DNA of 64,000 bases from Acholoe squamosa (taxonomy: Eukaryota > Annelida > Polychaeta > Phyllodocida > Polynoidae). Position 1 is the stretch's first letter, and each line of letters opens with the position of its first letter. Where the stretch lies: the NCBI GenBank assembly GCA_949317995.1, contig OX439039.1, forward strand, positions 18,219,282 through 18,283,281, read 5' to 3'. The position numbers and the translations under genes are program-made. Below the pieces are notes generated by a model, which saw nothing but the letters and a program-made list of their open reading frames with translations, did not search any database and was not told the origin of the DNA. This document shows, piece after piece, positions 4,655 through 60,348 of the stretch.

Positions 4655-7401
4655 GAGCTGAATGTGCCAAAATTATAATGCCCACTGGATAGGCGCGTAA
4701 CTCCCGCCGGTTTGTCTGTAGGGAACTCGGAGCTCCTTTCAGTCTCCATGGCATAACTTCCTTAATAATGGGAGTTCCGCCTTGATCTTGGGCTCATTTT
4801 GACCGTCTAATTATGGGCTTTCCATAAATGCTTTGATATTTGACCTAGCTTGCTCAGGAGCGACGCTAGAGCGACCGGACGGTTATGGCGTCGTGCTTAT
4901 GTAACCCATTGTTCAGTTATTAGAGTGCTCAGACACTCATGACGGCGTCAGCGGTGCTCAGGCACCCGTGACGGCTGGTTGCATTCACTTACAAGTTATT
5001 AATTTGTGCATTGAACCATGAGGTCGCACACTGAGACCCTTATTCTTATTATATTGTGCAGTGAACCATTAGGTCGGAGCCTTTGATGTCATAAACTCTG
5101 TCTAACTGACTGTGGCTGGTGTGCAGTGGGGCATGAACGCTCTTATACAAAGTTTGAGCGCTCTTATAGCTCTTAGAACCAACCTATGTATTAATTTCAT
5201 AGATATTCTTTGATTAATACAATAATATGTTAGAATTTATGGAATAATAAAATGGTATATCATAATATCATTCATTTTGTTTCTTAATTTACATGAACAA
5301 TCAATGACTATCTCCCTTTAGATCTGTCTGAACAAGGCGAATTGAGCGAAATTCAAAGTGTGCACTTTCAGAATCATGTGAGAAATCGAAATGTGGACTC
5401 GAAGGGATACTGCAGCTAAATCATTTGATATGGACCCAATGTTAACCATGAAAAGGAATAATTCTGCTACCATTTAGAACAGGTTCCGTGCATGGTACAT
5501 GGTAATACATGGCGTGTTGGCAGCCTGATGCATCGTCTCTACCCCCCTTATGCTATTTTCATCAATTGACATTATGCAGGGTGGGGATTATTAACAGGTG
5601 TTACTGTGTTATCATTTGTAGTTCTGCATCCATATATAACAATTTTGTATAGAGATAACGTCTGAAGTGTAGCAGCTGACACGCAGCCTAACATGACTCC
5701 TCTATTTTCTAGATACCTAAGAGATTAAAAGCGTATCCTAGTTATTCTTGTACGGACCTGTCTAACGGCCCTTCTTTCCCTCTCCTTCTTTCTCCCGGGC
5801 CTCCCTAGCCCACTTAAAAGGGTCTATTTCTCCTCTTTCCTATCCCCTCAGGATGTGTGTGGTGGACATATGCATGGGCACTGACACATTCCTCTGTGAA
5901 ATTTTGTAATGTAGTTCTCGCCATGAATATGACCTTAGCTGTCGAAATGGCGTTAAACCTCTATTACTCACTCACTCACTCACTCACTCACTCACTCACT
6001 CCTTCTTTCTCCTCCTTATTTCACATAGTTCCACATCATCTCGTTTCTCTTTCTATCCCATCCCCGTTCTCATTTCATATCTCAACTCCCCCCCCTCTAT
6101 TCCTACCATCGTTTTCTTTCTTATATATTACCACATATCATACCCGCCTGGATCAGTCAGTATACGTCCACGAAGGGTGGGGTCAGCGGAGGATTAAAGG
6201 GTGCCAAATGTACAGATCTTTCCCTAACACCTGAAGATCAACCACACCTACCCTGCAGCTCTGCCTTACACCCCACGTTGGATCCCTGTACATCAACACC
6301 TTGGACCCATCCCAGACACCTGATACCTAGCCTTAATACCACCATCCCACACCTATATCCCTACTACCTTACCCCTATAACCTACACCTACACCTCATGT
6401 TAGCATTGCAAATTGTCCTACAGCCCTCTGTGTGTAATGATAATGTAGGGGCTACAATGGGATCTGTATGGCTAAGGGTACAATGTGGGAGGGAAGGTAG
6501 ACAGTAGGGGTAGGGGGTTACATGTCAAATATTTATAAAATGTCAGGTAGGTTAAAGCACACACCTGAGATGAACCCTCCATTGTACATTTAATTACAGG
6601 TATGTTGTATGACCATAGAACAGGGTCCCACCTCCAGGTAGCCATAGAAAAGTCAGGTGTTTGTACAACAAATGGTGAAAGAGTGCATATTTACACAATC
6701 ACTATCACACCACTCACGCCATTTTGACTTCTGATTTCAGGCAAAGATCTTTCTAAAATCAATCTTCACTTGCTGCTTTCCCAATTAAATGTTTTTCTTT
6801 TTTAAATATTATATCAGAATGAGGATAACATCTCTAAGATAATCCAAAATAACCGGTACTATAACAGCTGACAAGGTTCTTTTTCGAACTGTGCAATGTT
6901 TACAGTTCTACTACATTGAGTTGACCTGAACCCATCAACTGTATTTATTTTCTTTCTCCATCAGCCTCCTTGTCCTTTTCAGCCTCACCTGTAGATGACA
7001 TTTTTCTGATGACAGCTTCCACACCTGGCCTCCCCCTCCCCTTACCATCACCCAGGCCGCCCCAGGAGGTAGCCTCCTGCTGCAGATCACATTGCCTCAT
7101 TAGGAGCTCCTCCATTGTCAGCTATACCTGGGTGTCAGGGTATGAGGGAGAGGCAGACAGCAGGCAGACAGAAACCTGTAATCTGCTACATAAACTGATA
7201 TATAGGGAGGCATAAAGTGAATCCCACAAAACAGAAAAAAAAAAAATCTAAAACATAGTGCAACCTTTACTATTTGAAATGTTTTGTGTGCTGTTATGAT
7301 TACTGATATGAACTATGCACCCTCAGCCCCGATTGTCAATATGCAGTAGATTGCCCTGTACTGGGTACCCGGCAATTTACTGTAGAGTCATTAGATTTCT
7401 A
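4655..7401. other. Gene-poor stretch with small direct repeats
   Basis: No supportable gene. GTGCTCAGRCACYCRTGACGG occurs at 4925 and again at 4954, and TTGTGCATTGAACCATGAGG and its near-copy occur at 5004 and 5054. A pyrimidine-rich region 5765-6130 gives serine/proline frames that look like chance. A15-like run at 7231-7247. Confidence 0.55.
5966..6000 (+). repeat. (CTCA)n microsatellite
   Basis: About nine perfect CTCA units. The serine/leucine/threonine frame crossing it is a by-product. Confidence 0.95.
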
Positions 7402-8307
7402 CACTGCAAAAATGGTGTTTAGATTTTAACCATGTTTAGGTCTAAACACGTTTAAAACCTAAACCTATAGGTCAGTTAGGTGTCTCATCGACTACACATT
7501 TAGGAAAGGAACAGTTTTATTCTAACTACATAAACATTTACGCTAAACATATTTAGATGTTTAGAGTTGAAACAGTTGAATAATAAGTGTTGAGATTTAA
7601 ACATCAATATGACTGTTTAGATACTTGGATGATGAATCCACACTAGGTAGCAGCAATACCTTTGAATGGACTATCTGCACACTGTTATAATCAATTGTTG
7701 TGACAAATGTCCCCAAATCCCATGTTTATCAGGGTTTCATACCTAGAATGTCATGTGAATAGAAAGGGCATTAGAAAATTGACTAGATTCACCTTATGCC
7801 ACCATCATTAGCATAAAATAATCAATAAGCTCCATGACTGACACCTATTTAATGTTATTCTGGAATAGATAAGGCAATGTCCTCCCTGCCAAGCTGTTGT
7901 ACTTTCTCAAGTCTCTCATTCTGATGCAGTGTGTAATACATGTACACGTATATAGCTGTGGCTGACATCTTTGGAGACTTTGACAAGTAAATATCTGCTG
8001 ATGCCCCCCCCCCAGTAAATGAGAAAACAAACAAAATATATCTCTATTTTTTTAATGCATACATGTCTGCAAACCTTAACTCTCCATCAAATCATTTAAA
8101 CATCTAAACACAAAAATTCATAAACACCTAAACACAAAAATTCATAGAATCTAAACACACGCTTTTAACCTAAACACCTACATTTCTAAACACTTGAGCT
8201 AAGCACATTGTTTGGCTAAACATGTTTAGGAAATTAATGTGATTACAAAAATGTTGCAAGAATATGTTTAGAATTGTGTTTAGGATCTAAACACCATTTT
8301 TGCAGTG
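7402..8307. mobile_element. Non-autonomous DNA transposon, ~906 bp, TA-flanked, copy 1
   Basis: Ends are inverted: CACTGCAAAAATGGTGTTTA at the left and its exact complement at 8288-8307. TA lies directly outside both ends (7400-7401, 8308-8309), consistent with TA target duplication. Many TAAACA / TGTTTAG words sit in both subterminal regions, in both orientations, like transposase binding arrays. A second copy at 33906-34803 is about 95% identical by eye and has TA on both sides too. No transposase frame is present. Family unassigned; CACTG ends also occur in CACTA/Chapaev groups, but those make 3-4 bp duplications, which I do not see. Confidence 0.9.
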
Positions 8308-11128
8308 TACTAACAGCAACTCTTACTGTTTTCTAAAAATACAGTAGAATGTCATGTAAATAGCTTGGCGCAGTATGACAGTGTGGGCAATATGATGAGA
8401 TTTTGTTCTTTTCTGACAAACCGAGGTTCATTTCTTAGTTTTGCGTTTATCTATTATCTTAACCCATCTGAAAGATTGTGACATATACAGGTTATTACGC
8501 CATAGCTGAGCAATTTAATCAATAATATTCCATAATATCTGCAAGTTTTAACGGCGTGAAGTTTTTTTTTTAAATATGTCTGCATGGATGAGGATTCTAC
8601 GAGTAGAGGAAAGAGGGCTAATACATTGAGTGTAGATCCCAGTGCCACATTACTCCAGTCTTTAAGAGGAGGTGCCATGGGAATCCACAGGTGCCTCCCT
8701 ACCCTTCCTCCAGGCTGATTTGATGTGGAGGAATGCTAATAAAATGACAATCCACGATTGATCCATCCCCCACATCACTACACATTTGATTGTCATAATT
8801 AGGGGAATGCTCACATCACACAAACCCCGATCCTGGTCTGGCACAGCAGAGGCTGCCAGACATTCAGCAGAGCCAGGTACGGTGGGAGAGGACAGGTGGT
8901 GCCTCCCGTCACTCCTCCTCCTCCTGGACGGTTCTACGAGTAGAGGAAAGACAGTGTGCCTTGGCAGGGGGAGACGAGCATAGGGACTACCTCGAAGAAA
9001 GAGACATGTGTAGAAATGATGCAATGCATTGAGTCATCAATTGATACCTGTATATTAGGTAAAAGTTGTTGCTTCCATTTGGGAGTTTCATTGTCAATAA
9101 TAGCCATTATTTGTATATGTCTATGGGAAGTAGAGATACCTTAAACCATTTACACAAAAGTGTTTATAAATATTTCTTAAAATAATTCCTAAATTAATCA
9201 TATCAACCCCCATCCAACATAGTTTCTCACATCATGTATAGCAGAGCGTCACATCATTTTAATATCAGCCATGCTCTCAGTCAAGAACAGCAGTTCTCCA
9301 GTGTTAACGGGTGTGGTGGGAATACACAGGTGGCCTCCTTTCCTCCAGCAGTCCTCCAGGGCTGTAGGTGTGTGTGTGTGTGGGGGGGGTATGAGGTGCA
9401 GGAGGAGAGACGATTAGTGCCGTGTGAAGATCATCAGGCGGTGCCACACCCACCTGTTGGACCTCAACGTCTGTAGCCTTCACACCGCCACACCTCCTCT
9501 ACAGAGCAAAGCAGTAGGTCCTAATACATAGGGAAAAGTCTACTGTTTTAGCCATTTATCGCATTTTGTATTGCATAATGATAAAGCAGGGCTCTTGACA
9601 CTCTGTCACTTACCTATACTAGATAACATTATGGATTTTCCTTTTCTTTCAGTCAGAACATTTTTGGATGGAATTAAAAGCTAAATTGTCCACCCTATTG
9701 TAGGACTCATGTTCAGAGTAACAATACTTTAGTTGAACATTTTACCTGTATTTTTACATGATTACAGCTCTATGTGAGTAACTTCTCCCTTTCTTCTTCA
9801 AAAGTGGGGGCCGAACACGGGAGCTTTTATTTTTCCTTACAATATACACAGGATGGCCATGCATGATGTATACAGGTAGAGGACGGTCTTCCAGGTTCTC
9901 ACCTTATCAGACATATCTCACCTGACGTGTACAGCGAGGTGTGAAGGTGTGTGATTCTCCCACACCTACACAGCCAGCACCCACTCACCCAGCTCAGGTG
10001 TACAACACCTTACCCGGTGTCACCAGGCTGCATGGAGGATTCCTTAAGCCTTATTAAAGGGTAGCATACATATGGTAGGGGTTAAGGCAAAAAGAGTCAT
10101 TTTTACTGATATAGTGGAGGTAGCTCTTGTGAGTAGATACACTGTTAAAAATGGAATCAAAATAGAGATGATTTTCCAAAAACATTGGGACATCACTTTT
10201 AATGTCATTCTCACAGCGATTCCTCGTAACATAGAGTTTCACTTTATTGTTTTCTAGGGCTTCATTTTAAAAGTTGCACAAACGATTTGAAAAGATAATG
10301 ATTTACAATACAGTTTACATGAATGCCTAATAGATTCATCAGTCATTTCTTAGAGTGTAACAATATTACATGTGTGCACCATTAAGACACTGTGTGAAAT
10401 ACACATTTTTATCTACTATGAACATAGATTTGAAACTGCGCTCGGCCACTTTTCACCTGGTCTTGCTTCCCCTTATTTACCAAAACCCACCTGTTCTGAA
10501 CCCCTGACACCAGAGGAGAAAGGGAAAGTTTCATTGGGAGGGGTCGGGGGTATGACCGCCCCTCTGGCGTTCAGGTAGCAGTAACCCGATATGTCACCTT
10601 TGATCCTAGTTATAGGGCGGAGGAGTCTGAGACTGATCTGGTCAGACAGGCGGACACAGGGACGGGGGCCTTGACAGCGGGTAGGAGTAGGGGGTCTTTT
10701 ATAACTTCATCTCTTTGTGTATACCTCAGGTTAACCATTTATTTATGTTTAGATGTCTCGTCTTGAGGCACCTAGTGATGTCAACGAGCAATTTCCCCAT
10801 GTGCCATATTGCCCCATTTATGAAGGCTTTTGTGGGGTGTATTATCCCTATGCGATCACATGATGCATGGTTTATTACACGGCAATCTAGTGGGCAAAGT
10901 GCATTAAACCACGTTGTGACCTGTAAAGAGTTATGTAAAGGCCAGTGGCTTTGGACATTGATAGGGGACAGAGAGAAATGCCGACAAAGGTGGGAAGGAA
11001 GAAATGTAGACATTTTCTTAAAAACAGTTCAAGTTATGTTTTGGTGACATATCTATACGGAGAGGCAACATTTCAAACATTTCAATGGAAAGAACTTCAT
11101 GTTATTCATAATTACAAATACGCACCAG

Positions 11129-14411: not shown

Positions 14412-14725
14412 GTAAGAAATTGATACAAAATGGAGGAATAAGTGCGATAAAGGCATTAATGCATTGATAAGGTAGGACTAGGTGAGGTTAGCTGGAATTA
14501 TACCACGATTTCTGGCTTACACAGTGCTTTTTGGGGTCTATTCCCATCCACATATCTGTCGATATTGCACACCCTATAGGCTGTAACATCAATTTTGGAA
14601 GGCGTGCGGTTATCAAGGGAAGGCATGCGGTTATCCAGGTAAGGCGTGCGGTTATCCAGGATAACCGCATGCCTCTCATGTCCTTCCATGTCATATGTTA
14701 CATGTTAAAACCCATGATAGGCTAG

Positions 14726-14792
14726 ACCAGGGCAGGGCTCGAACCTGCAGCCTTAGATCCCTAGTCCAACCCCCTATGCATTGCGCCACAGC
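14726..14792 (-). repeat. tRNA-derived unit, minus strand, copy 2
   Basis: Minus-strand B box GGTTCGAGCCC (14735-14745) and A-box-like TGGCGCAATGCATAGGG (14771-14788). Closer to the B-box consensus than copy 1. Confidence 0.7.
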
Positions 14793-14920
14793 GACTGACG
14801 AGATACGCTCGGTTAGAACCAAGTCTGGATATGATACAAAGCCGTGTGCGCTGTTGCTGTCCGCTGCTGGGTGAGGAGGTGTATTGTACACAAACATAAC
14901 CGCGAGGCGCAGTGAACGGA

Positions 14921-14997
14921 GAAGGCGCGGTGGCCTAGCGGTTAGCGCTTTGCGCTCAGCCGCATGAGGTACACGGCTCGAGTCCCGGTCTGGGTGC
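14921..14997 (+). repeat. tRNA-derived unit, plus strand, copy 2
   Basis: A box TGGCCTAGCGG (14931-14941) and B box GGCTCGAGTCC (14975-14985), followed by a T-run from 15001. Same unit as 574-653. Confidence 0.75.
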
Positions 14998-15200
14998 ATC
15001 TTTTTTCGCCGTGTGCGCTGTAGCTGTCCGCTGCCGGGCGACGAGGTGTATTATACACAAACATAACAGCGAGACGCGTCTTTTTTTCGCCGTGTGCGCT
15101 GCCGCTGTCATCGAGTCCCTGGGAGGGGGAATAATTTTTGTTTTTAACTTGAATTTATTGGTATAATATTGATTATTTATTGGTTTTGTGGTATAAAATA

Positions 15201-15321
15201 AGTAGTCAATGGATAACTCAAGACTTGTGTGGGTTAGCAAAGGCTAATAACACTTGGCTTACGGCCTCGTGTCATTATCCTTCACTAACCCACACGCGTC
15301 ATGAGTTATCCATTGGTTACT
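15201..15321. repeat. Terminal hairpin of composite repeat, full form
   Basis: Outer arms AGTAGTCAATGGATAACTCA and its near complement at 15302-15321, continued by TGTGTGGGTTAG pairing with CTAACCCACAC (15284-15294). A CACTTGGCTTACGGCCTCGTG loop region separates them. Copy 1 keeps only the outer arms. Confidence 0.85.
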
Positions 15322-15326
15322 TGTTC

Positions 15327-15363
15327 AATATTCGCCCGACCGCACAGCGGTCGGGCGAATATT
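15327..15363. repeat. Perfect 16-bp GC-rich hairpin, 5-base loop
   Basis: AATATTCGCCCGACCG, loop CACAG, then the exact complement. It begins six bases after the end of the composite repeat hairpin. It looks like a bacterial terminator, but nothing else here is bacterial. Confidence 0.95.
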
Positions 15364-16833
15364 TCCAGCAAACCTCACCTCGTCCTACCTTATCAATACA
15401 TTAATAGCTTAATAAATCTACAAGTATGTCATATTTCCACTGACGAGGGGAGAATGATAGAGATGCACCACCGGCAAAGGCGGAAACAAACGGAAGAAAC
15501 AAACAGCCTTGCCGTGATTTCTTTTAAACTAAAGTTTGATACCGTATATGATTCTTATGCTTAAAATTGCGCATTCGGTTGACAAAATAAAAAAAAGAGT
15601 ATATTTTATAACAATGAACATCTGTTTGTGCACATTCCTATACACCATGTAATACATCACTCAGACCAGTCGTGTTTTGTCACAAAAAGAGATAAGGTCA
15701 GGCATAGCAGATATGTATCACAGACTACATTCCAGCTCTAACGACTAGGGCTTCACCCCCCCCCCCCTGCACCCTCCCTGTTGACCAGTGTGTAGCTGCC
15801 AGTGCTATCTATAAGGGACATGAATCATCACCCCCCCTCCTCTAGACATCCATCAGATGGTGTCATTAGTAACAATGTAAATTACACGTTATGCTAATTA
15901 CACCTTACACCATTATGCACCTAGCGGCACGCATTGGTCCCAGAGACCATTCAGACTGACTCAGCTGCTATTGCTAAGCCTTCCTACCATTTCTGGAACA
16001 TACAATGTGCAATAGGCGGTGGCTGAGGAGGCAGGCAATGGGGGAGTGGTTGGCGTATGCATTATCATTAACCTCTATGGTATTATATACTCCATATCAG
16101 GTAGGACTTCACCAGGTAGCTCCATAGTTCCTGTATGTAGGTGCATAGACTGCCCCAGACTCTATGTGCTACATAAAAGGGCACCCTGACAGCAGCTGAT
16201 TGCCGCCTGGCTCCCTAGCCAATGCCTCCCACAGGGAAAATGACAGAGTGACCCAGGCCCCATTGTACCCTTCTCCCAGGACCCAAGAGAGACCTTTTAG
16301 GGCTTGGGCCCCACTATTTACTGGACAGATGCATCGTTTTGGTTAAATTTAGAGGAAATGGGGATGGGGAGGTCTGTCTGCGTGACTGGATGGAGGGGGT
16401 GGGGGTCGGTGTCATTTGTATGGCGGTAAGTATGTCCGACTTGTTGGAGGAGGCATAGCGATCATTGCTGCTTTTGTCTAGCAGCAAGTGACCCCAGCAG
16501 TATAAATACCTGGACCTCTGTGTACAGGTAAATAGACTGACGATGAAGATGAGACGTCAAGGGGAGGAGGGGCAGTGGACCACAAACTAATCCTACATCT
16601 TAGATACCGACAAAGTATTGGGTAAAGATACACACAGACACCGTCTGGGACAGCACAAAGACTTAAAGGCAGTGGTCTTTAAATATTGAAGCAATGAGAA
16701 GGAAATCAGGAGTGTATAAACTAGGAAGGAACATAGATGAGGGTTGAAGGACATAGAGAAGAAAGAACTAGAAGTTTGTATTGGACAAAGATGGAAATCT
16801 ATAAACAAAATAAACCTGTTGAAGCTCAGTAAT

Positions 16834-33619: not shown

Positions 33620-33905
33620 GTGGGTGCCACAGTCGTGGTGTATTGGATCTGTAACTCCATGTATCAGTGCCTCAGTCCCTCATGTTATACATGTGGACAC
33701 CTGGGGTGGATCACATGGCGTGGGGTGGGCATATTACTACTTCTACATGTATATTGGGAGATGATTGAGGTATTTGGTTGGTTGGTATATGGATGGAATG
33801 TTATCATGTATCATTGAAGATGTAGCAGCGATAATAAAACATACTATAGGGTTCCGGTGCACAAATGCAACTTAAGAGAGAGAGAGGGGAGACACTTAGT
33901 GAGTA

Positions 33906-34803
33906 CACTGCAAAAATGGTGTTTAGATTTTAAACATGTTTAGGTCTAAACACGTTTAAAACCTAAACATATAGGTCAGTTAGGTGTCTCATAGACTACA
34001 CATTTAGGAAATGAACACTTTTATTCTAACTACATAAACATTTATGCTAAACATGTTTAGATGTTTAGAGTTGAGACAGTTGAATAAAGGGTGTTTAGAT
34101 TTAAACATCAATATGTTTAGATACTTGGATGTTGAATCAACACTAGGTAGCAGCACTACCTTTGAATGGACTATCTGCACAGAGTTATAATCAATTGTTG
34201 TGACAAATGTCCCCAAATCCCATGTATATCATGGTTTCATTTCATAGAATGTCATGTGAACAGAAAGGGCAATAGAAAATTGACTAGATTCACCTCATGC
34301 CACCATCATTACCATAAAATAATCAATAAACTCCATGACTGACACCTATTTGATGTTATTCTGGAATAGATAAGGCAATTTCCTTCCTGCCAAGCTGTTG
34401 TACTTTCTCAAGTCTCTCATTCTGATGCAGTGTGTAATATATGTGCACGTATATAGCTGTGGCTGACCTCTTTGGAGACTTTGACAAGTAAATACCTGCT
34501 GATGTCCCCCCCCCAGTAAATGAGAAAAAAAATATATCTCTGTTTTTTAATGCATACATGTCCGCAAACCTTAAATCTCCATCAAATCATTTAAACATCT
34601 CAACACAAAAATTGATAAACACCTAAACACAAAAAATTCATATATCTAAACACAAAGCTTTTAACCTAAACACCTACATTTCTAAACACTTGAGCTAAGC
34701 ACATTGTTTGGCTAAACATGTTTAGGAAATTAATGTGATTACAAAAACGTTGCAAGAATATGTTTAGAATTGTGCTTATGATCTAAACACCATTTTTGCA
34801 GTG
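33906..34803. mobile_element. Non-autonomous DNA transposon, ~898 bp, TA-flanked, copy 2
   Basis: Same ends and orientation as 7402-8307, including CACTGCAAAAATGGTGTTTA at the left, the complement at the right and TA outside both. Differences are scattered substitutions and small indels (for example around 34508-34560), so both copies are similarly aged. It would lie in the intron between candidate exons 6 and 7. Confidence 0.9.
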
Positions 34804-35542
34804 TATGTAGAGGGGGTATAGCTCTCTAGTGATATATCGGGTGTGATGGCTTACCCGGGGAATCTATCATTATCATTGACATTATCAACACAGAACAAAG
34901 GGACTCACAAAGTGCTCCCAGTCACGACTAGGCTACCACTGCACTACTATTACACCTCATCCAGCAGAAATGAGTAGTATAAAAAATGACTGACCCACAT
35001 ACCCACCCAGAGTACATCACATGTGCAATCAGTGCCCTGGGATTAAACCATTAAGAGTTACATTATGTCTCCAGGCTCATGATTCTTTGTGATTATGTTG
35101 CATCAATGGACTTTACACAGATGCATAAGTGCATCATGCCTATTTGTCGGGTGCATCAACCCAAAAGAGTCAGCATGATGCATGAATGCAGCCCTTTTTT
35201 CGAGACCCACCAGCCTGCATTTCGGTATCATGGTCATGAGGACACATTTATGAGAAGCATGCTTTAATACATTATGCAGCCAGAGATAGCAGAGTGGCAT
35301 CCAATCTGGATCATGTGTGGTGATTTTCTCATAAATGTGTGATTCTCTGCTTGGCTGGTTGGTGAGAGATGATGGCGGTATTTGGGAACACGGGACCTCC
35401 ACATGCTGTAGATGCATCATTAGCTGACAGAGGGAAGGACAACCAATCCCATATGTTCCCATGTGGGAGGGATGAGTCCTACTCCTCCCCATCATTCCAC
35501 TTTGAGTAACTAGGCTTTTCCTGGTAGCCCCCCCCCCCCATC

Positions 35543-38104: not shown

Positions 38105-38181
38105 GTGAAGCAGTGCACGACTTGTTTGGAAAAAAGGGCAATACTCACAGCTCTTTTTACAATAGGAGCAACACCCTCCTG
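38105..38181 (+). repeat. ~78 bp dispersed repeat, copy 1
   Basis: GTGAAGCAGTGCACGACTTG through AGGAGCAACACCCTCCT, repeated at 41630-41707 in the same orientation with few differences. Confidence 0.85.
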
Positions 38182-41629: not shown

Positions 41630-41707
41630 GTGAAGCAGTGCACGACTTGTTTAGAAAAGAGGGCACATACTCATAGCTCTTTTTGCAATAGGAGCAACAC
41701 CCTCCTG
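41630..41707 (+). repeat. ~78 bp dispersed repeat, copy 2
   Basis: Near-identical to 38105-38181; the similarity starts slightly upstream (AAGTAC...GTGAAGC) and stops sharply after CACCCTCCT in both copies. Confidence 0.85.
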
Positions 41708-48166: not shown

Positions 48167-51100
48167 GTATAGACTCATCCTGTATACAGGTATACATACC
48201 AAAGTGTACTAGTCAGTATCAATAATTGAAGGATTTCTTTATAACATTACAAAAAAAAAACATTCTACCTGTAAATTCCTCACTAAGGGTAATCTAGCTA
48301 CTTAAGATATAGTAGTTTCTGTAAATGAATGAAACAACAAGCTTAAGTAGAGCTCTTCAGGGTGCTGTCAAATGAGGAAATAGCATGTGCTACAGTGCCC
48401 AGTTTGGTAGCCAACATTAGAGAGTTGATGCCCCCCCCATCACACAGGATCAGCAGACACCCTAGCACCCACTCCAGCACCCCTGGACCTACTTTCTGCT
48501 GTCTATCCATATCTTATCTCATTAATTAACACCACACATCAGCCTCCCGCCAGCTGGACACCCTAAGTTCTGGAACACGTCTTAGATCATGGAGGCTTAG
48601 AGCCTCCATGGGGAGAGCCTACCATAGACAGTTACCACTATAACCCTGTCTATAGCGTTATGAATTTTGTTCGCAGAGGAATGATTTCTCTTTGACCTCA
48701 GCAGAGATGATCCAAATGAACATTAAATCTCATCCTCATGAATTTATTTTGCTTTCTTCAAATTAAACGAATTGTATGTCGTCAATCACCCGGTTCACAA
48801 TCTTTTTCAAGTTTCTTATTTCTCTCTTAACTGGCTAAGTGGCCCGGTTGCGTGTTATATCAATTTGTTATTCAAAAAGGAACTGGCTATAATCCGCTAT
48901 GCAGGATATCTAGGTCAGCATTCAAAAAGTGGGTACTAGTAGTCTGTCTGTGATGTAGGATGGGGGATTAGATCATAGAAGATAAAACCATGAGTAGGGG
49001 TAATACACCTCAACCATTTATCTACCTATTCTCCTTTCCTTCTTTTTTAAACTGGTTGACTTATTACTTTAGCATACTTAAGAGGTGTTACCTACAGAGG
49101 TATCTATAATCCATGCTGAAAAAGAGATGTTTGAAGCAGTGGGTGTGATGAATGATTGTCTATCAGAATATGTGATAACCAACAACACTGTAATGTATAT
49201 ATATTCATGTGGCATGGTGGGCTGTAGACCAGAGAGCAGGATTCCCATTTAGCCCTTTAGGGGCGGCATGGTGCTTCTAGTTTGTTGGTTTGTTTTTATT
49301 TCATTATTAAGCAGTGCAGGGTTGATAAGAATTTCTCCCTCAATGCCTCAATGTCCAGTTCGATAGTTTCCTGCCATGAACTGGCCTGCCTCCCCCCTCC
49401 CCCATTAGGGTCATGTATACATTGGTTACAGCACCCATGTGTATGTTATCTCTATCTTGGCTCATCCCTGCTAGTTTATACAGCCAATAGTCCTGTATAA
49501 TCTCCTTCACATCGTGTTAAGAGCTGCTCTGAGTTGGCCCCAGCTGCTCAGAGCAGCTCTGTGTACCTAAGGATGAGTAACTCTAGAGTAGGGTAATGAG
49601 GCAGGCTAGATGTGACGACCAGGTAATCACCTGTAGTGTTTATCTGAGTACCTGGATTAGGAACACTCCCCTCCCTACCACTCCCTACACTGACCCTTAA
49701 TACTTAATCCACCCCCAGGATTCACTCGACCCCACCCCCTTATGGTAGCCCCTTATACCTAATCCACCAACTCCGCCTCCCCAATGTACCTAAGCAATAC
49801 CCTGAAATAGTTACATCTGCCTTGTTTCCCTGCCGCAGGGTACTTGAGTAAGTATACGCCATGTTAGAGCTGTGAGCATTCAGTGCGAGGGCTGTATTGA
49901 AAGAGTCTCCAGACTTTGGTTCATCAGATCGTCGCCTTACTGCAAGAAGGTTGTTTTGACAAAATTAAGATCTCTTCTGTTTCAACATCTATTTTCCTTT
50001 ATCTACCCAATGTGAAAGTACTGAAGCTATGTCTAAGATATGTTGTATCCACTTTGTGTTATCGGAACACTAAGGCACGAGCGTCATGATTCTGCCTGGT
50101 TATTCAAAGAATGATTAATACATATCAGGTATGATGAGTTACCAAGAAGGTGTTCGCCCAATCGCTAGGAATGAAGTTAACTTTTGATCAGTTGCTGTAT
50201 CCATGGCAGGGACCACACACCTTACTATCTATAGACACCTCAAGTAGGCCTTCTATTATAGAAGACGGTAATAACATTTGACGTTGGTTATTCATTCATT
50301 TACCTTACTTACAAAACATTTATTGAATCTTAATATAAAGATTGCCTTCTCTATGACCATCTTGTCTCACATTATTAACCGAAGTGAAAATAGTATCATG
50401 TAGTTAAAAGGTAAAGGCCTTTGTAACGATGTGATTCTCGGATGTCCACATAATCCATGTTCATCGTTTATGTAGGGTGTGTATAAATGTGTGTAAAGCA
50501 GAGAAAGCCAAGGTCAGATGATTTAAGGAGCCCAGGTTAGGCAACATTTCCCTCTCAGGACAGCCACAACTCAATTTAGTGTAAAATAGATAAATAAATA
50601 AAAATGTATGAATAGTATGTTAAGACAATTATAACATGGCGATGGAAAACAAACTTGGATCTATACACAGCATTGCCCATTTCACGATAATAACATATTT
50701 TTATCTTGAACCTTTTTAAGAAGCTACTTCAAGTTCTAAACAAGGACAGGCTTGCAGAGCAATGCACTTGAGATAGAGAACAGGGTGATCCCTGATCGTC
50801 CATATCCTAGTAGAAAGAGGTTGATATGATACTTCAACGCAGACATCTCCAGTCGATGGATACCAGCATGAAGTGTACCTATACACCATTACGTCTACTC
50901 TGGTAATCTCAACTATCAGTAATATACTCAGGTAACCGCACAAATGGAAACACAAAATGTTGAATAAAACACTCTTATCTATGAATCTGGATCCTATCTA
51001 GCCATACTTGTTTAACAGTTGTGCATTGGTAATGAAGGTATCACACAGTGATCCAGTGTACCTGGCGCCAGGCAGGTTACACTTTAGACTAGAGTAGTTG

Positions 51101-51895: not shown

Positions 51896-52855
51896 ACCCC
51901 CCCTCTACCCCCCTTCAAAGTAGGCTCCCTTTTGTGTTCAGTATTGAGTCCTATGTAGGATAAGGGGGTTTATAGAGATGTCAGGAATCTTTATCAGAAT
52001 GATATCAAATGGAAACAAGGGGCCACCTATACCAAAAACTCCTGCTGAATCCAAAATTTGTGATCTTGATTCTCAAAATTTGACCAAAAGTACCTAAAAA
52101 TGAGGTTTGATGATGAGAATATTTTAAAAATGTACAAAAGTTATATTGAAAATGATTTGAAATTTTCATAGATGCAACATGCTAATCAAAGTCAATACCT
52201 CAATCTACAAATCCCAATGTCTGCCTATCTCAACCTGACAAGTACTCTACCTGTGTATGGCTCTGCCTCTCCAACATACTGCCTATCCCTTAGTCTACCT
52301 ATCACTCATACTACATGTACCTATCCCTTGAAACATCTAGAGTTTAATTAGGTTTTCCCTCAAATGGCTTAAAGGATTAAAGTATACCCCTCACCTTTGT
52401 ACCTAATTTTCTCTGTACATTCTTACCATTAGTCTACCTATCCTCAATCTGCCTATCATTCACTTTACCTATCCCTCATGGTGACTATCCCCCAACTCTT
52501 CACATCCCTCATGTTTGACTGGCACATCTGTGATATTACCTAGCACCAATGTACCTTTTGAATATGCTCACTTTACAAGGTACTCTCTATGCCTATCTCT
52601 TAAACTGTTTATTACACATGCTACCTATCCTCATTGCTACCCATCCTCTTCAATACCTATCCCTCATGTTCAGCTGGGATAGCTCACAACCAACCTTCAT
52701 TTTGATCTCTTAGTCAACCTCTCCCCTAAGGAACAAATTTAACATTCTACCTCACGCATACATCTACCTATCACTCATGCTATATATCCTTCAGGCTACC
52801 TATCCTTCAGGCTACCTATCCTTCATGGTATAGAGCCCTCAGTTTATTACCTTAA
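51896..52855 (+). repeat. Left arm of foldback
   Basis: Outer ~300 bases are unique sequence; from about 52200 it consists of CTACCTATCC-type units in loose tandem. Confidence 0.85.
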
Positions 52856-53159
52856 AAATGTTTTGTTGTCAAGTGGGATAGCATGAATGATATGCAGCAT
52901 GGAGGATAGGAAGAGGGGAATAAACAACAGACATGTAGGATAGGAAGTTAGCTAGTCTAATGATAGCCATGGTGAGGCATTTAAGAAAAGCATGATAATT
53001 CAATGGGCTGAGGGATATGTAAGGTAAACATGAGTGATATGCAGACTTGAGGATAGGTACAATGAGCGATAGGTATATTTCACAAGGCATAGACTATAAG
53101 AGCTATTATAAAGGTAGAAAGAATAGAATACAAGGTGAGAGATACATAGATAGCTGGTT

Positions 53160-54133
53160 AGGTAGACTGAAGGCTATATACCATAAAGGATAGGCACCCT
53201 GAAGGATAGGTAACCTCAAGGATATATAACATGAGTGATCAGTAGATGTATGCTTGAGGTAGGCTGTTGGATTTGTTCTTTAGGGGATAGGTTGACTAAG
53301 AGATCATAATAAAGGTTGGATGTGAGCTATCCCAGCTGATCAAGCTGTGATAGGTATGAAAGCTATAAAGTGAGCTTGAGGGATAGGTATTGAAGAGGAT
53401 GGGTAGCAAGGAGGATAGATAATAAACAGTTTAAGAGATAGGCACAGAGGGTACCTTGTAAGGTGAGCATATTCAAAAGATACATTGGTGCTAGGTAATA
53501 TCACAGATGTGCCAGTCAAATATGAGGGATGTGCAGAGTTGGGGGATAGCCACCATGAGGGATAGGTAAAGTGAATGATAGGCAGATTGAGGATAGGTAG
53601 ACTAATGGTAAGAATGTACAGAGAAAATTAGGTACAAAGGTGAGGGGTAAACTTTAATCCTTTAAGCCATTTGAGGGAAAACCTAATTAAACTCTAGATG
53701 TTTCAAGGGATAGGTAGTATGAGTGATAGGCAGACTAAGGGATAGGCAGTATGTTGGAGAGGCAGAGCCATATGCAGGCAGAGTACTTGTCAGGTTGGGA
53801 TAGGTAAACATTGGGATATGTAGATTGAGGTACTGACTTTGATTAGCATGTTGCATCTATAAAAAGTTCAAATCATTTTCAATATAACTTTTGTACATTT
53901 TTAAAATATTCTCATCATCAAATCTCATTTTTAGGTACCTTTGGCCAAATTTTGAGAATCAATACCACAAATTTTGGATTCAGCAGGAGTTTCTGGTATA
54001 GGTGGCCCCTTGTTTCCATTTGATATCACTCTGATAAAGATTCCTGACATCTCCATAAACCCCCTTATCTTACATAGGACTCAGTACTGAACACGAAAGG
54101 TAGCCTACTTTTAAGGGGGGGTAGAGGGGGGTG
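53160..54133 (-). repeat. Right arm of foldback
   Basis: Inverse of the left arm; GGATAGGTAG-type units up to about 53840, then the unique outer part ending GGGGGGTAGAGGGGGGTGG. Confidence 0.85.
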
Positions 54134-54702
54134 GCTTGCACTATAGGACTCTATGGAGTAACATATCCTAGGGAACCTATACTATTTTTGACTTCTCTAT
54201 GACAGACTGCATACCTGCATGGACTGTTGGTGGTTGTTACTGTGTATAGTAGACGATAGGCTGACCCGGATCAGGATACACACTTTGAAGCCTAGAACCA
54301 CTGTAATAATAACTATATTCAGGTAGGTTGCCTTTGTCGAATACTCATGGCACAATTCTAATATTTCTAAATCCAGACAGAACACTTTTTTATAATTGGG
54401 CAGTAGAGAACGTACTTACTGAGATCATTGAGCTTTCTACAGCAAATTACTAAACCTGATAAATTATAATGATGACTGACTTGACCTTTTAAAATCATAA
54501 GTACCGTTATACCAGGAATAAATGGACACAATTTATAGACGATTCAATGAGGGATGAGGAGATGTAGTCGTACCTATAAATGCTTTAATACAAAATCTAT
54601 CTACATATTACATATTGCAATCTCTGAGCCTAATTGATAAAGGGTCTGTTCAAAATATTGTTCCTTGGCCGTTATTTTGAAATAGCCTTCAGATCTGTAG
54701 TC

Positions 54703-55204
54703 CTGGAGGTTAATTCAAAAGGTCCTGGGATTTCTACCCATGTGATCTTAGCATAGGCACATATCATAGGACCTAGCCAGTCTACCCTATCTAATGCCAT
54801 GGTTGCAGGCGAGTCAGGCAGAGCAAGTCCTGAGATCCCTTCACTATTCCTTTTCCAGCCGTAAGATCAATGGGGAGGGAGGACGTTTGCTGAGAGTCCT
54901 TGAGGGCTCTTCAGGCTACTCAGGCATGAAGTGCACTTGAATACTGTACGAGGTCAACTGCACCCTATACTCTATGAGTAGTTCGTATATATGCTATCCT
55001 TTCACTATTGGCCTCTTGCCCCTGTGCACAGTGTGTTCTATTTGGAATGGTGTAGGAGGGCTGAGGCTAAGATCACTGCGATCTTAGTGCTGGCTGTGAA
55101 AAGGCAAGACAGTCTAATCTTAAGATCGCTTAATTGGATAAGGCAGAATAATTCTGAAGATCGCTGAGGTAGCGATCCCAGGACCTTTTGAATCAACCTC
55201 CCAG
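54703..55204 (+). mobile_element. Inverted-repeat element with intact empty site, ~500 bp
   Basis: Ends GGAGGTTAATTCAAAAGGTC and, on the other strand, GGAGGTTGATTCAAAAGGTC. The interior has short AAGATC / GATCTT inverted motifs. It is the inverted relative of 57177-58325. It carries TATACT once at 54966-54971, exactly where the other copy has a 500 bp insertion. It lacks about 85 bases found in the other copy (58056-58140), replaced by a simple junction near 54860. Confidence 0.88.
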
Positions 55205-57176
55205 ATCACCAAGCAGTTTAGAGAGCAGCAAATACCTGATGAGTGCAAGAAGTTGGTAGCTGTATAGGTATGTGTGGATCCCTGTAGTTGACTCAGGCAC
55301 CATGCCTGCAGTGTTGTAGCATGGCATGTTGAATGTGGCACGGGATGGGTATACAGCACCACGTCTATACACCTGATAGGGCCGCTATCTGCTGTATAAA
55401 CCCCCTGACATGGCAGGGACCTGATATATGCCTGTAGACCAGGTGTCCTACACGTCCTACACAAACACCATGAGCTGCTCAAACCTGCTCACAGCTCTAC
55501 TCATACCACACTTGAGTTGCTCTGAGACTTTGTATCTTTATACAAGGGCTATAGAGGCCAGATTAGACTGAAAGGTGCACTCAAAGTTAAAAGTATACCC
55601 ACTGGCAGCGACCTCTTTTCTCTCATCTAGCTTCAGGCGTATTAGATATAGAGACCTAGCCATGATTTCCATCATGGTAGACTGTGAATTATCCAAGGGG
55701 ATGCAGCTACCCAGGACACAATGCATAATAAATATTCTAAAGGTGTCATCACCTGCACAATAACCATTTTCATTATCTAAAACATAAATTGACGAATGGT
55801 AGTTAATGCACTCTATGTTCTCCAAGCATGACGTTTGAGGCAAATGGTTAGCATGGGCTCAAGAATATGTCTTTTATATGCACCAGAAGCTACTAACAAA
55901 GTCTACCTGAGTTGCTCAGAGGATTTTATGTCTTTATAGACGGGTGAAGATGTTACTGAAGGGTGTAACCATTCATGAAAGGGCACCCTTAGGCAGATGA
56001 TACTTACCCTCCTCCTTGCTTCAGGGTTATTGAATGACCTAGGGCTATGTTATATCATCTAGGACTCTGAGATCTTCATCCATCAGGAAGCTATCCAGGA
56101 CCAGCCATAAGTTTTTACCACTCACAGATACTAAAAGATACCAAAAGTCTTAATCTTTGAATGGTACCATTATACATATTTATCCTAGTAACTTGAAAAG
56201 TGAAAGGTATATCAGAACCACGATGTTTAATTGAGGTTGATTTTTCTCAATAATTATTTATGACCTGAATTCATTATACTCACTTTTACTTTTACATAGA
56301 GTATGAATTGAATAGTGATCAAGCGTCGACGGCCATCACTAACCATTCTACAATTCTGTTACATGTACATGCATGTTCCTTCATTGTTATAATACTAGGA
56401 ACACTAGCAGTTTGTGGCAGTGATAATTATTATCGTATTATCATGTATGAAGATGACCACGTCTTGAGTATGTATTAGGCTTATGGTAGAGCAGTATAGA
56501 CCAGCTCAAAGAGCAGTTCTCTATGTAAATACCTATACCTGTCTATGCCGACCACCCCCTATAGGTTACAGTCTAGACCCCTCCCCAAACATTATGGTAT
56601 CTCTTCACAGGGGGTATATATAATAGGGGTCTGAGAGGCTGCTTGTAGCTCCATTGTAGTAGATATGCCAATTAACATGTTGATCGTAACATTGTTTATC
56701 AGGTTTCAATCAAATTAAACCTCAACCTAATTGTACATGTATACAAACTTTGGAGGAAAATACAACTTTAGATTATGTTTAAATTGTCTTGGTCGTATGA
56801 AACATATATATGAAACAACCTGTGGGCAATGTTGGGAATACTGAACTTGATTCATTCTTTTCTCTTGTTAGGCATAGGCCTTAGAGATATACACATTCAT
56901 TTCTAAAAGGGCAAGATGGCGGCTTTTATGACATAGAACAGTGAGAGTGGTACAACACCCCATACCACCCCTCGCCATGCCATCATACCACCCAGGGGTG
57001 GGCTCTACATTTATGATTGATCATGTTTATAGCAGAGGAGTTATACAAAAACCGACGTCCTATGAGGAGAAATAAACCCCCTCCTAGAACCTGACAGCTT
57101 ATACTAGAGGGACATAATTTAATGGGATAAACAGGCAGGAAAAAAGTCAAGGAGGATTATAAATCTACAGGATCCT
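55205..57176. other. Gene-poor stretch with one YY1-type start
   Basis: AAGATGGCGGC (56913-56923) is a full YY1 site on the plus strand. Its ATG gives MAAFMT then a stop, so the true start would be elsewhere. Two GAGTTGCTC words at 55514 and 55909 lie in similar TGAGTTGCTCWGAG contexts. No supportable exon. Confidence 0.45.
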
Positions 57177-58325
57177 CAGGAGGTTAATTCAAAAGGTCCT
57201 GGGATCGCTACCTCAGTGATCTTAGGAACTATTCTGCCTTATCCAATTAAGATTAGACTGTCTTGCCTTTTCACAGCCAGCACTAAGATCACAGTGATCT
57301 TAGCCTCAGCCCTCCTACACCATTCCAAGTAGAACACACTATGCACAGGGGCAACAGGCCCATAGTGAAAGAGTAGCAGTGGAAACACTCCTTCTCACAA
57401 GAATGATTACACAAGCGTCCCCCCCCCTTATATGCTACTTACATAGTATAGCCCGACCCCTGCACTTTCTATGGTAGAGGTACACCACCTGCGTTCCCCA
57501 AAGCAGGGGAAAAGGGTGATTTTCCATCTCATTCCAATGTCCCTGGAATCAAGAAAAAGGGGTGTTTTTTTCGCAAATAATCTCCATGGTTTAGAGAAAA
57601 AAGGGGTGTTTTTATGGGCTGACTCCATGGAATTTGAAGTACATGGATGCTTTTTGTAGTTTAGGGGATTTCCCTCCTTTATTTTGCCAATAAATATTCA
57701 CACACAGGTATAAAATTTATGCTGTTTATTTGAGACAATATCTCAAATTATTTTCAATGTGGGAAAATGGGGTGCTAAAAATAATGTCAGCATTTTGTGA
57801 GAAAAAGGGGTGTTTTTCTACCTTGAAAAGTCAACGTTTTCCCACAAAAAGGGGTCTTTTTTGCATAAAATTCCATGGAAATGGGGTACTTTTTTTGAAG
57901 GAGGGAACGCAGGTGGTGTTCATACTACATATAGAATGCAGGGGCCGGGGAGTATAGGGTGCAGTTGACCTCTTACAGTATTCAAGTGCCCTTCATGCCT
58001 GAGTAGCCTGAAGAGCCCTCAAGGACTCTCAACAAACATCCTCCCTCCCCTCTATATGTATACAGCAGGGACATTCACTGTTGGGAGCAGGAGTGTTCCC
58101 TGTGACTGCTCTTGTACTCCGGTGAAACCACTATGCAAATTATTTCACTAAGATTGCACTGATCTTACGACTGGAAAAGGAATAGTGAATGAATCTCAGG
58201 ACTTGCTGTGCCTGACTGGCCTGCAACCACTGCATTAGATAGAGTATACTGGCTAGGTCTTATGATATGTGCCTACGCTAAGATCGCAGGGGTAGAAATC
58301 CCAGGACCTTTTGAATTAACCCCCT
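57177..58325 (-). mobile_element. Inverted-repeat element, second copy, carrying a nested insertion
   Basis: Begins CAGGAGGTTAATTCAAAAGG and ends with its complement before CCCCCTG at 58325. It is inverted relative to 54703-55204. Without the 500 bp insert plus its 6 bp duplication it is about 640 bases; it is longer than copy 1 because it keeps sequence at about 57375-57444 and 58056-58140. Confidence 0.88.
57451..57950. mobile_element. Nested 500-bp inverted-repeat element with 6-bp target duplication
   Basis: Exactly 500 bases, flanked by AGTATA at 57445-57450 and again at 57951-57956. Its ends GCCCGACCCCTGCA and (other strand) CCCCGGCCCCTGCA continue as imperfect ~55-bp inverted repeats that include CACCACCTGCGTTCCC. 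The interior repeats AAAAGGGGTGTTTTT. The frames at 57428-57659 and 57730-57957 lie within it and show no transposase similarity that I recognise. Confidence 0.92.
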
Positions 58326-59559
58326 GATATGTTATTGACGCACTGACGGATTTGGGGAGAGCGAGGGGGTTGGCATGCCTTGTCCTAGGAGCATGTTATA
58401 TCTTTTTTTTTGTACAGCCTAAGTGTCTGGGATACTTGCCCTGTTCAAACATTATCATTGTTAAACCTTTAAATGCAGTGCGTAGCTTTGCTGTACTCTA
58501 CAATTGTCTTTTTTTCATCATACAGTAATGTAGGGTACAAGCCGAGATACAAGTTACCAATGCTTTTATGCATCATGCAAGCTTTATAGCGTAATCGATT
58601 ACTATCTTTACACATTCAGGGTTAAGATGTTGCACCTGTGAATCACAAGAATGCCGGTATATGAAAATGAATCCTTGTTTAACCAGAGCAAGATTTATAA
58701 AGTTTTAAGATGGCAAAAGAGGGGGCTAAGGGATCGTGGAGAAGCTTTAAGTGTGCTAGAGTTGAAAGAGCGCGATCCTTCAGATCTAGCAGGGGCTTAT
58801 TGATAAATATATGCTTATCCTTTGGCTTATTGAAAATGTCAAGGGAGCAACCTCTGGATTTACAGCAGCAGGTCATTGTTGAGTTCTAGGTTACATGCTT
58901 CACATATTATAGTACACTTTTGGGCATAAGACAAAGCTCAATGTTTAATCAACTTTGATAATTTGTTGATTAGCGTTGATCAACCAGTTGTCAACATTCA
59001 TTCTAGGTTCTCTAACCATTGAGTAGTTCTGAGGCTATTGCAATGGTATTGAATGTAGGATGATGCTGAATCTTCTAATAATGAGATTTTAAATCAACTT
59101 TCATGATGATGTTCCATGCTTTGCGGCTGAGGTTTGGATATTGAGACACATTAAATATCAATACTTTTGATATTGAGGAAAGTATTTAGAATAATTTAGC
59201 CAGAACCTCTAGGTCATTACAAGTTTGTGACTAGATAGCAAAATGCAACTGAATGTTGCGAACTTATGACTAATGTCATTACCATGAGACAGGCCTCTCT
59301 GTAATGTGCTTCCTCCATATATAACTCCGTATGTGTACCTCACACACATGACTAAAATATAACACAGGACTTAACAAGTCAGCACCAATACACGTCATAC
59401 CACTGTGTATAGCTATAACACTATTAGCTCCAGTAGGCTGCAGTGCACAGAATGTGCACCAGTCATAACTGATTTAGGGAACCCTCAAGGGGAACCACCA
59501 GGGAAGAGGCTGGCCATATGCCCCATCTCATCTTCTTTGCAGCCTCAAAGACTGAAGCC

Positions 59560-59990
59560 GATGAGAAAAGGGAACAAATGAAGGGACAGGGGAAAGGCTC
59601 TGTGAGGAGGGTTCAAGGAAGGAACAAAACGTAAGAGGTATGTAGAGAAAGAGAATAGGGGTGGGGGAGTATAGGGAAGGGGCAGGATGGAAAGAGGTTG
59701 AGTCGGGGAATGGTATAAAAGATGGACTGGAGAAAATTGTATAAGTAAGGCTCTGGGTACAGAAGTGCAGCTGTAAGGACGGAAAGGAGGGACAGGGCAG
59801 TGAGGACAGGGAGGGAGAAAATGGAAGGTTCATATATGAGGCAGTGAACTGCAGGAAAACAGAGACGACCTCTGGAAAGGAATTAAACTTGTGGATAGAG
59901 GAAAAGAGGAAGAACGGCAGGAGAAACAAGGGGGAAGTAAGGAGGAAAGGATGGAGGATGAGAGGCAGTGAAGGACTGGACAGGAGAATC
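59560..59990 (+). repeat. Purine-rich strand-asymmetric block
   Basis: Mostly A and G on the plus strand for over 400 bases, e.g. GGAGGGACAGGGCAGTGAGG. The 158-codon minus-strand frame here is made almost only of Ser, Leu, Pro and Phe because of this bias. Confidence 0.8.
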
Positions 59991-60348
59991 AGCAGTAAAG
60001 ACAATAGACAATTCCTTTTATTAGTGACGTCGATGGATTAGATTGACTAGAACAGTAAGGGTAAGTCCCCACTACATGTTGAGTGGTTTATGACAGAACA
60101 CAGACCCCTACTTGTCATGCTGCCCAGGGAGCCGCTCTGGGACTAAATCCTTGCACTAAGCAGCCCCTTCTGTTCTCATGATGCTGTGCAACTGATTGTG
60201 AGTCATATCTTTAATGTACATGGATGTGGTTATGGGCATCAGCACTTTACTTCCCTAAGATACAAATTTCAACCAGTAAAATCAACCAGGAATTAACCAT
60301 ACCTCTCATGTTCCAACGTCTAGGTTTTTGCATATACATGTAATCATG

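Follow-up and report, generated by a model that had tools for sequence, protein, structure and literature searches.

A short inverted-repeat element nested in one of two neighboring copies of a host repeat in Acholoe squamosa DNA, and its empty site in the sister copy

A stretch of 64,000 nucleotides of Acholoe squamosa DNA (hereafter the window) contains two related copies of a repeat, one of which carries a segment of about 500 bp that the other lacks. This arrangement raises the questions of whether the segment is a transposon that entered one host copy, where its ends lie, and to which kind of element it might belong. The original prediction had described a nested transposon whose empty site is preserved in a paralogous copy, and our analysis upholds that description, as one host copy contains roughly 500 bp that are missing from an inverted sister in which the site is intact.

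In keeping with a eukaryotic origin, the window has a GC content of 42%, a longest stop-to-stop open reading frame (ORF) of 182 aa, and 15 repeat pairs of at least 60 nt. Rfam and tRNA searches of the window returned nothing, and no Pfam match was obtained either for 10 selected ORFs among the 71 of at least 85 aa (E up to 0.05) or for 10 of the 44 ORFs of at least 62 aa that start at or after position 49000 (E up to 0.1). Several repetitive units occur elsewhere in this sequence. A foldback-like unit at 51898-54131 is built from inverted arms of about 950 bp (51898-52846 and 53163-54131, 89%), has C-rich ends, and encloses 16-bp tandem repeats of the TACCTATCC type; no duplication was found flanking it. 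The 929-bp segment at 14466-15394, with GATAAGGTAGG ends and flanks AATGCATT and AATACATT, was the sole match of a scan for exact 11-nt inverted ends accompanied by a near-perfect 8-bp duplication, and it spans a repeat family in common with 244-1075. Two direct repeats, each 93.6% identical, measure about 900 bp (7400-8309 and 33904-34805; flanking duplication not found) and 78 bp (38105-38181 and 41630-41707).

The host of the insert is a repeat of ~0.6 kb, found as two copies in opposite orientation when positions 54500-58700 were read and 54000-60000 were scanned for repeats. Both copies were delimited by repeat scan and alignment:

57179-58324, plus strand: host repeat, interrupted copy
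54705-55201, minus strand: host repeat, uninterrupted copy

Aligning these two copies, a check that had been proposed with the original prediction, yielded blocks matching at 91-96% and located the uninterrupted site in the copy at 54705-55201. The individual blocks are 54705-54872/58157-58324 (91%), 54872-54972/57950-58050 (96%), 54992-55123/57247-57378 (95%), and 55129-55201/57179-57251 (93%). In the joined alignment there are 35 substitutions over 483 columns (7.2%), 23 of them transitions. Indels add further differences between the copies: one of 10 bp lies near 57247, another of about 50 bp at about 57379-57430, a third of about 4 bp beside the insertion point, and a fourth of 106 bp at 58051-58156.

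The host repeat is itself full of inverted sequence, including ends of 45-50 bp, CTAAGATCACTGCGATCTTAG-like palindromes, and a 26-nt inverted pair (57381-57406/58075-58100) that falls largely within segments missing from the shorter copy. Neither copy has a convincing target duplication of its own: the 6-bp sequence CAGATC is repeated at one copy but lies nine bases outside its left end, and the other copy is flanked by 4 bp at best. A composite unit of 3.6 kb, with the inverted host copies as its ends, was considered and rejected, as the longest outer duplication was 4 bp and its positions were shifted.

At the insertion point, the following features were assigned:

57452-57949, no strand assigned: nested element, 498 bp (57451 and/or 57950 also possible), absent from the sister copy and bearing inverted-repeat ends
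57444-57451, plus strand: target duplication, left copy TAGTATAG in the 8-bp reading (AGTATA in the 6-bp reading), 7/8 against the right copy
57950-57957, plus strand: target duplication, right copy GAGTATAG, identical to the empty site
54965-54972, minus strand: empty target site, a single exact GAGTATAG within the uninterrupted host copy

The insert measures 498-500 bp, the best ends being 57452-57949. On re-reading the sequence, we found the two AGTATA copies that bound 500 bp just where they had originally been placed, at 57445-57450 and 57951-57956. The intact site, CATAGAGTATAGGGTGCAG, lies on the minus strand in the uninterrupted copy, whose sequence is CTACTCATA GAGTATAG GGTGCAGTTGACC when taken in the orientation of its interrupted sister. 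In the interrupted copy the corresponding sequence is CTACTTACA TAGTATAG to the left of the insert and GAGTATAG GGTGCAGTTGACC to its right. In register, 14 of 19 positions agree between the left flanks of the two host copies, compared with at most 7 of 19 when the flanks are displaced by up to 4 bp, at any of eight other offsets. Owing to the indels by which the host copies also differ, the match is cleaner on the right flank than on the left.

As only one site is present in the sister, the element most likely arrived after the two host copies had separated, in the lineage of 57179-58324. This order of events had been proposed originally, and the single clean site in the sister speaks for it, with precise loss from the sister being a formal alternative. 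Under that alternative, the segment would be ancestral to the host repeat and would have disappeared from 54705-55201 through precise excision or deletion. The copy at 54705-55201 does lack other segments, of about 50 bp and 106 bp, which could reflect either deletion there or gain by the other copy. Loss of the insert, however, would have required removal of the element together with exactly one flank copy, and the uninterrupted copy has one exact GAGTATAG where the interrupted copy has two; we therefore consider an ancestral segment improbable.

The length of the target duplication is less sharply defined. It had been claimed that the ends, the length, and a 6-bp duplication were all fixed by the comparison; AGTATA does match at 6 of 6 positions, but that claim was too strong, as readings of 6, 7, and 8 bp receive equal alignment scores against the empty site at each of three gap costs. 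The duplication is 6-8 bp long, with 8 bp (TAGTATAG/GAGTATAG) the best reading. Two considerations favor 8 bp. Placing the ends at 57452 and 57949 makes the termini an exact inverted repeat (CCCG...CGGG), whereas under the 6-bp reading the outermost base would be mismatched; moreover, the empty site is matched by both G 57451 and G 57950, a coincidence under the 6-bp reading that we estimate at roughly 1 in 16. Counting against 8 bp is the single mismatch in the left 8-mer. If no duplication is assumed (cut at 57446/57951), the alignment scores slightly better than with the 6-8 bp readings, by 5 to 8.5 units depending on gap cost. We nonetheless rejected it because it would leave to chance the repeated flanks beside inverted ends: in 200,000 random draws, the probability of a 7/8 flanking match was 0.0006 with the ends fixed, and that of a 7/8 or 6/6 match was 0.014 when 2 bp of freedom were allowed at both ends.

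The terminal and internal parts of the insert are as follows:

57452-57498, plus strand: left terminal inverted repeat, 47 bp, 37/47 against the right end; outer part CCCGACCCCTGCA, inner part ACACCACCTGCGTTCCC
57903-57949, minus strand: right terminal inverted repeat, 47 bp, from repeat scan and end comparison
57554-57569, plus strand: internal motif AAAAAGGGGTGTTTTT, copy 1, no mismatches
57598-57613, plus strand: internal motif AAAAAGGGGTGTTTTT, copy 2, no mismatches
57802-57817, plus strand: internal motif AAAAAGGGGTGTTTTT, copy 3, no mismatches
57846-57861, plus strand: internal motif AAAAAGGGGTGTTTTT, copy 4, one mismatch

The terminal inverted repeats are imperfect, pairing over the 47 positions without gaps, and they have a two-block structure in which an outer CCCGRCCCCTGCA (12/13) and an inner ACACCACCTGCGTTCCC (17/17) are separated by a variable middle. 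The element begins and ends with CCCGACCCC and CCCGGCCCC, respectively. When folded as single-stranded DNA, it reaches -88 kcal/mol, compared with a mean of -53.95 kcal/mol for 100 shuffles (z = -8.75), none of which was as stable. Exact CCCGRCCCCTGCA occurs in the window at the two element ends only. With up to 3 mismatches the window contains 34 matches to this sequence, against 15.4 expected and with none of 100 shuffles containing as many; the other near-matches are probably C-rich sequence.

Allowing up to 3 mismatches, the four listed copies of AAAAAGGGGTGTTTTT, all on one strand, are the only matches in the window, where about 1 is expected. Four matches were reached in 3 of 100 window shuffles, and the count by itself is thus weak. 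Stronger evidence comes from a direct repeat of 18 nt, exact, within the interior: none of 1000 first-order resamples reached this length, the longest repeat among them being 16 nt. The four motif copies are real, but a regular tandem arrangement of the interior was rejected, as the autocorrelation of the whole interior was reached by 109 of 500 resamples. Three ORFs of at least 62 aa overlap the element and gave no Pfam match at E up to 0.1; comparison of one ORF of the element with PDB sequences produced three matches with E values of 0.54 to 0.92, which amount to nothing.

Searches for relatives of the element were uniformly negative. Its own internal repeats aside, no second copy exists in the 64-kb window, and blastn against phages found none. 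Viral contigs carrying CACCACCTGCGTTCCC supplied 13 stretches, but when the element and pieces of the host repeat were compared with all 13 by blastn, the only matches were 16-23 nt long (best E 2.7e-4), and we took them as chance. The bipartite end pattern was absent from the viral contigs and genome contigs searched, and the uninterrupted host copy had no match in a plasmid collection. Such negatives say little, because the collections are viral, plasmid, and prokaryotic and the window is eukaryotic. The element ends had not been recognized when first described, and they are likewise unfamiliar to us; a literature search on the end words yielded no transposon paper, as judged by titles and the openings of abstracts.

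Taken together, the inverted ends, the agreement of the flanks, the intact site in the sister copy, and the lack of recognized coding sequence make it very probable that the insert is a non-autonomous, MITE-like DNA transposon. Of the features of MITEs, the locus displays terminal inverted repeats (37/47), a target duplication with its empty site (7/8 or 6/6, 6-8 bp in length), and a short body of 498-500 bp without coding capacity, no Pfam match having been found in the three ORFs. A hallmark of MITEs is repetitiveness, with many similar copies in a genome. Weighing against a MITE-like identity are the single copy known (within the window), the 14/19 agreement of the left flank, and the better-scoring alignment without a duplication.

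By analogy with the general biology of such elements, a transposase encoded elsewhere would bind the two-block inverted ends, perhaps along with the AAAAAGGGGTGTTTTT repeats of the interior, and would excise the element by a cut-and-paste mode. Insertion at a staggered break in the older host repeat would then have created the duplication, most probably of 8 bp (GAGTATAG).

Duplication length and termini were compared with those of known superfamilies. The chances seem to us evenly balanced that the element is a non-autonomous member of Zisupton/KDZ, Merlin, IS3EU, Mutator-like, or Novosib, superfamilies with 6-9 bp duplications; Mutator-like and Novosib duplication lengths lie within this range. 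Duplications are 8 bp in Zisupton and 6 bp in IS3EU (PMC12730594) and 8-9 bp in Merlin (PMC8101967). The likeness to Zisupton/KDZ consists of inverted repeats and, in the preferred reading, 8-bp duplications (PMC12730594), and the element differs in having no transposase, in contrast to the KDZ transposase of that group. For Merlin, the inverted-repeat range of 24-462 bp takes in the 47 bp seen here, but Merlin termini are 5′-GG, whereas those of the element are CCCG or GCCCG (PMC8101967). IS3EU elements resemble it in having inverted repeats of more than 30 bp and would have a 6-bp duplication in common with it if the 6-bp reading is right; the termini of fungal IS3EU families, however, are TAYGG..CCRTA (PMC12730594), which CCCG or GCCCG does not fit.

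We regard as possible, but rather unlikely, a hAT-type non-autonomous element with a Buster-like target preference. The preferred reading has an 8-bp duplication, the usual hAT length (PMC3517528), with hAT families having duplications of 5, 6, and 7 bp also described (PMC12730594), and GAGTATAG fits the Buster consensus nnnTAnnn (PMC3517528); yet a central TA in an 8-mer arises by chance about 1 time in 16, and this is a single insertion. One close comparison is with the Drosophila element Mar, a hAT MITE of the Buster group that is likewise short, at 610 bp, and non-coding; its duplications are 8 bp long and follow nnnTAnnn (PMC3517528). Mar is known from many copies, as opposed to one for the element, and has ends of 11 bp, CAG(G/A)GGTAGGC, unlike the imperfect 47-bp ends that start from CCCG here (PMC3517528). 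Mar (CAGRGGTAGGC) is the one hAT family compared, and inverted repeats of 47 bp also exceed the 5-27 bp given for hAT elements in the same source (PMC3517528). The CCCG ends thus fit none of the three terminal signatures compared (hAT Mar, Merlin, and IS3EU). It is very unlikely that the element represents an undescribed inverted-repeat superfamily defined by CCCGRCCCCTGCA ends, an inner inverted block, same-strand AAAAAGGGGTGTTTTT repeats, and 6-8 bp duplications.

The nested insertion is real and ordinary in kind; eukaryotic genomes commonly contain short DNA transposons that are nested within other repeats and have paralogous empty sites. It is of value as a clean insertion with an internal control, one that locates the ends of the element to within one base on each side and thereby aids annotation of its family. 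If it is true that these ends belong to no known superfamily, they would provide a search handle for the autonomous partner.
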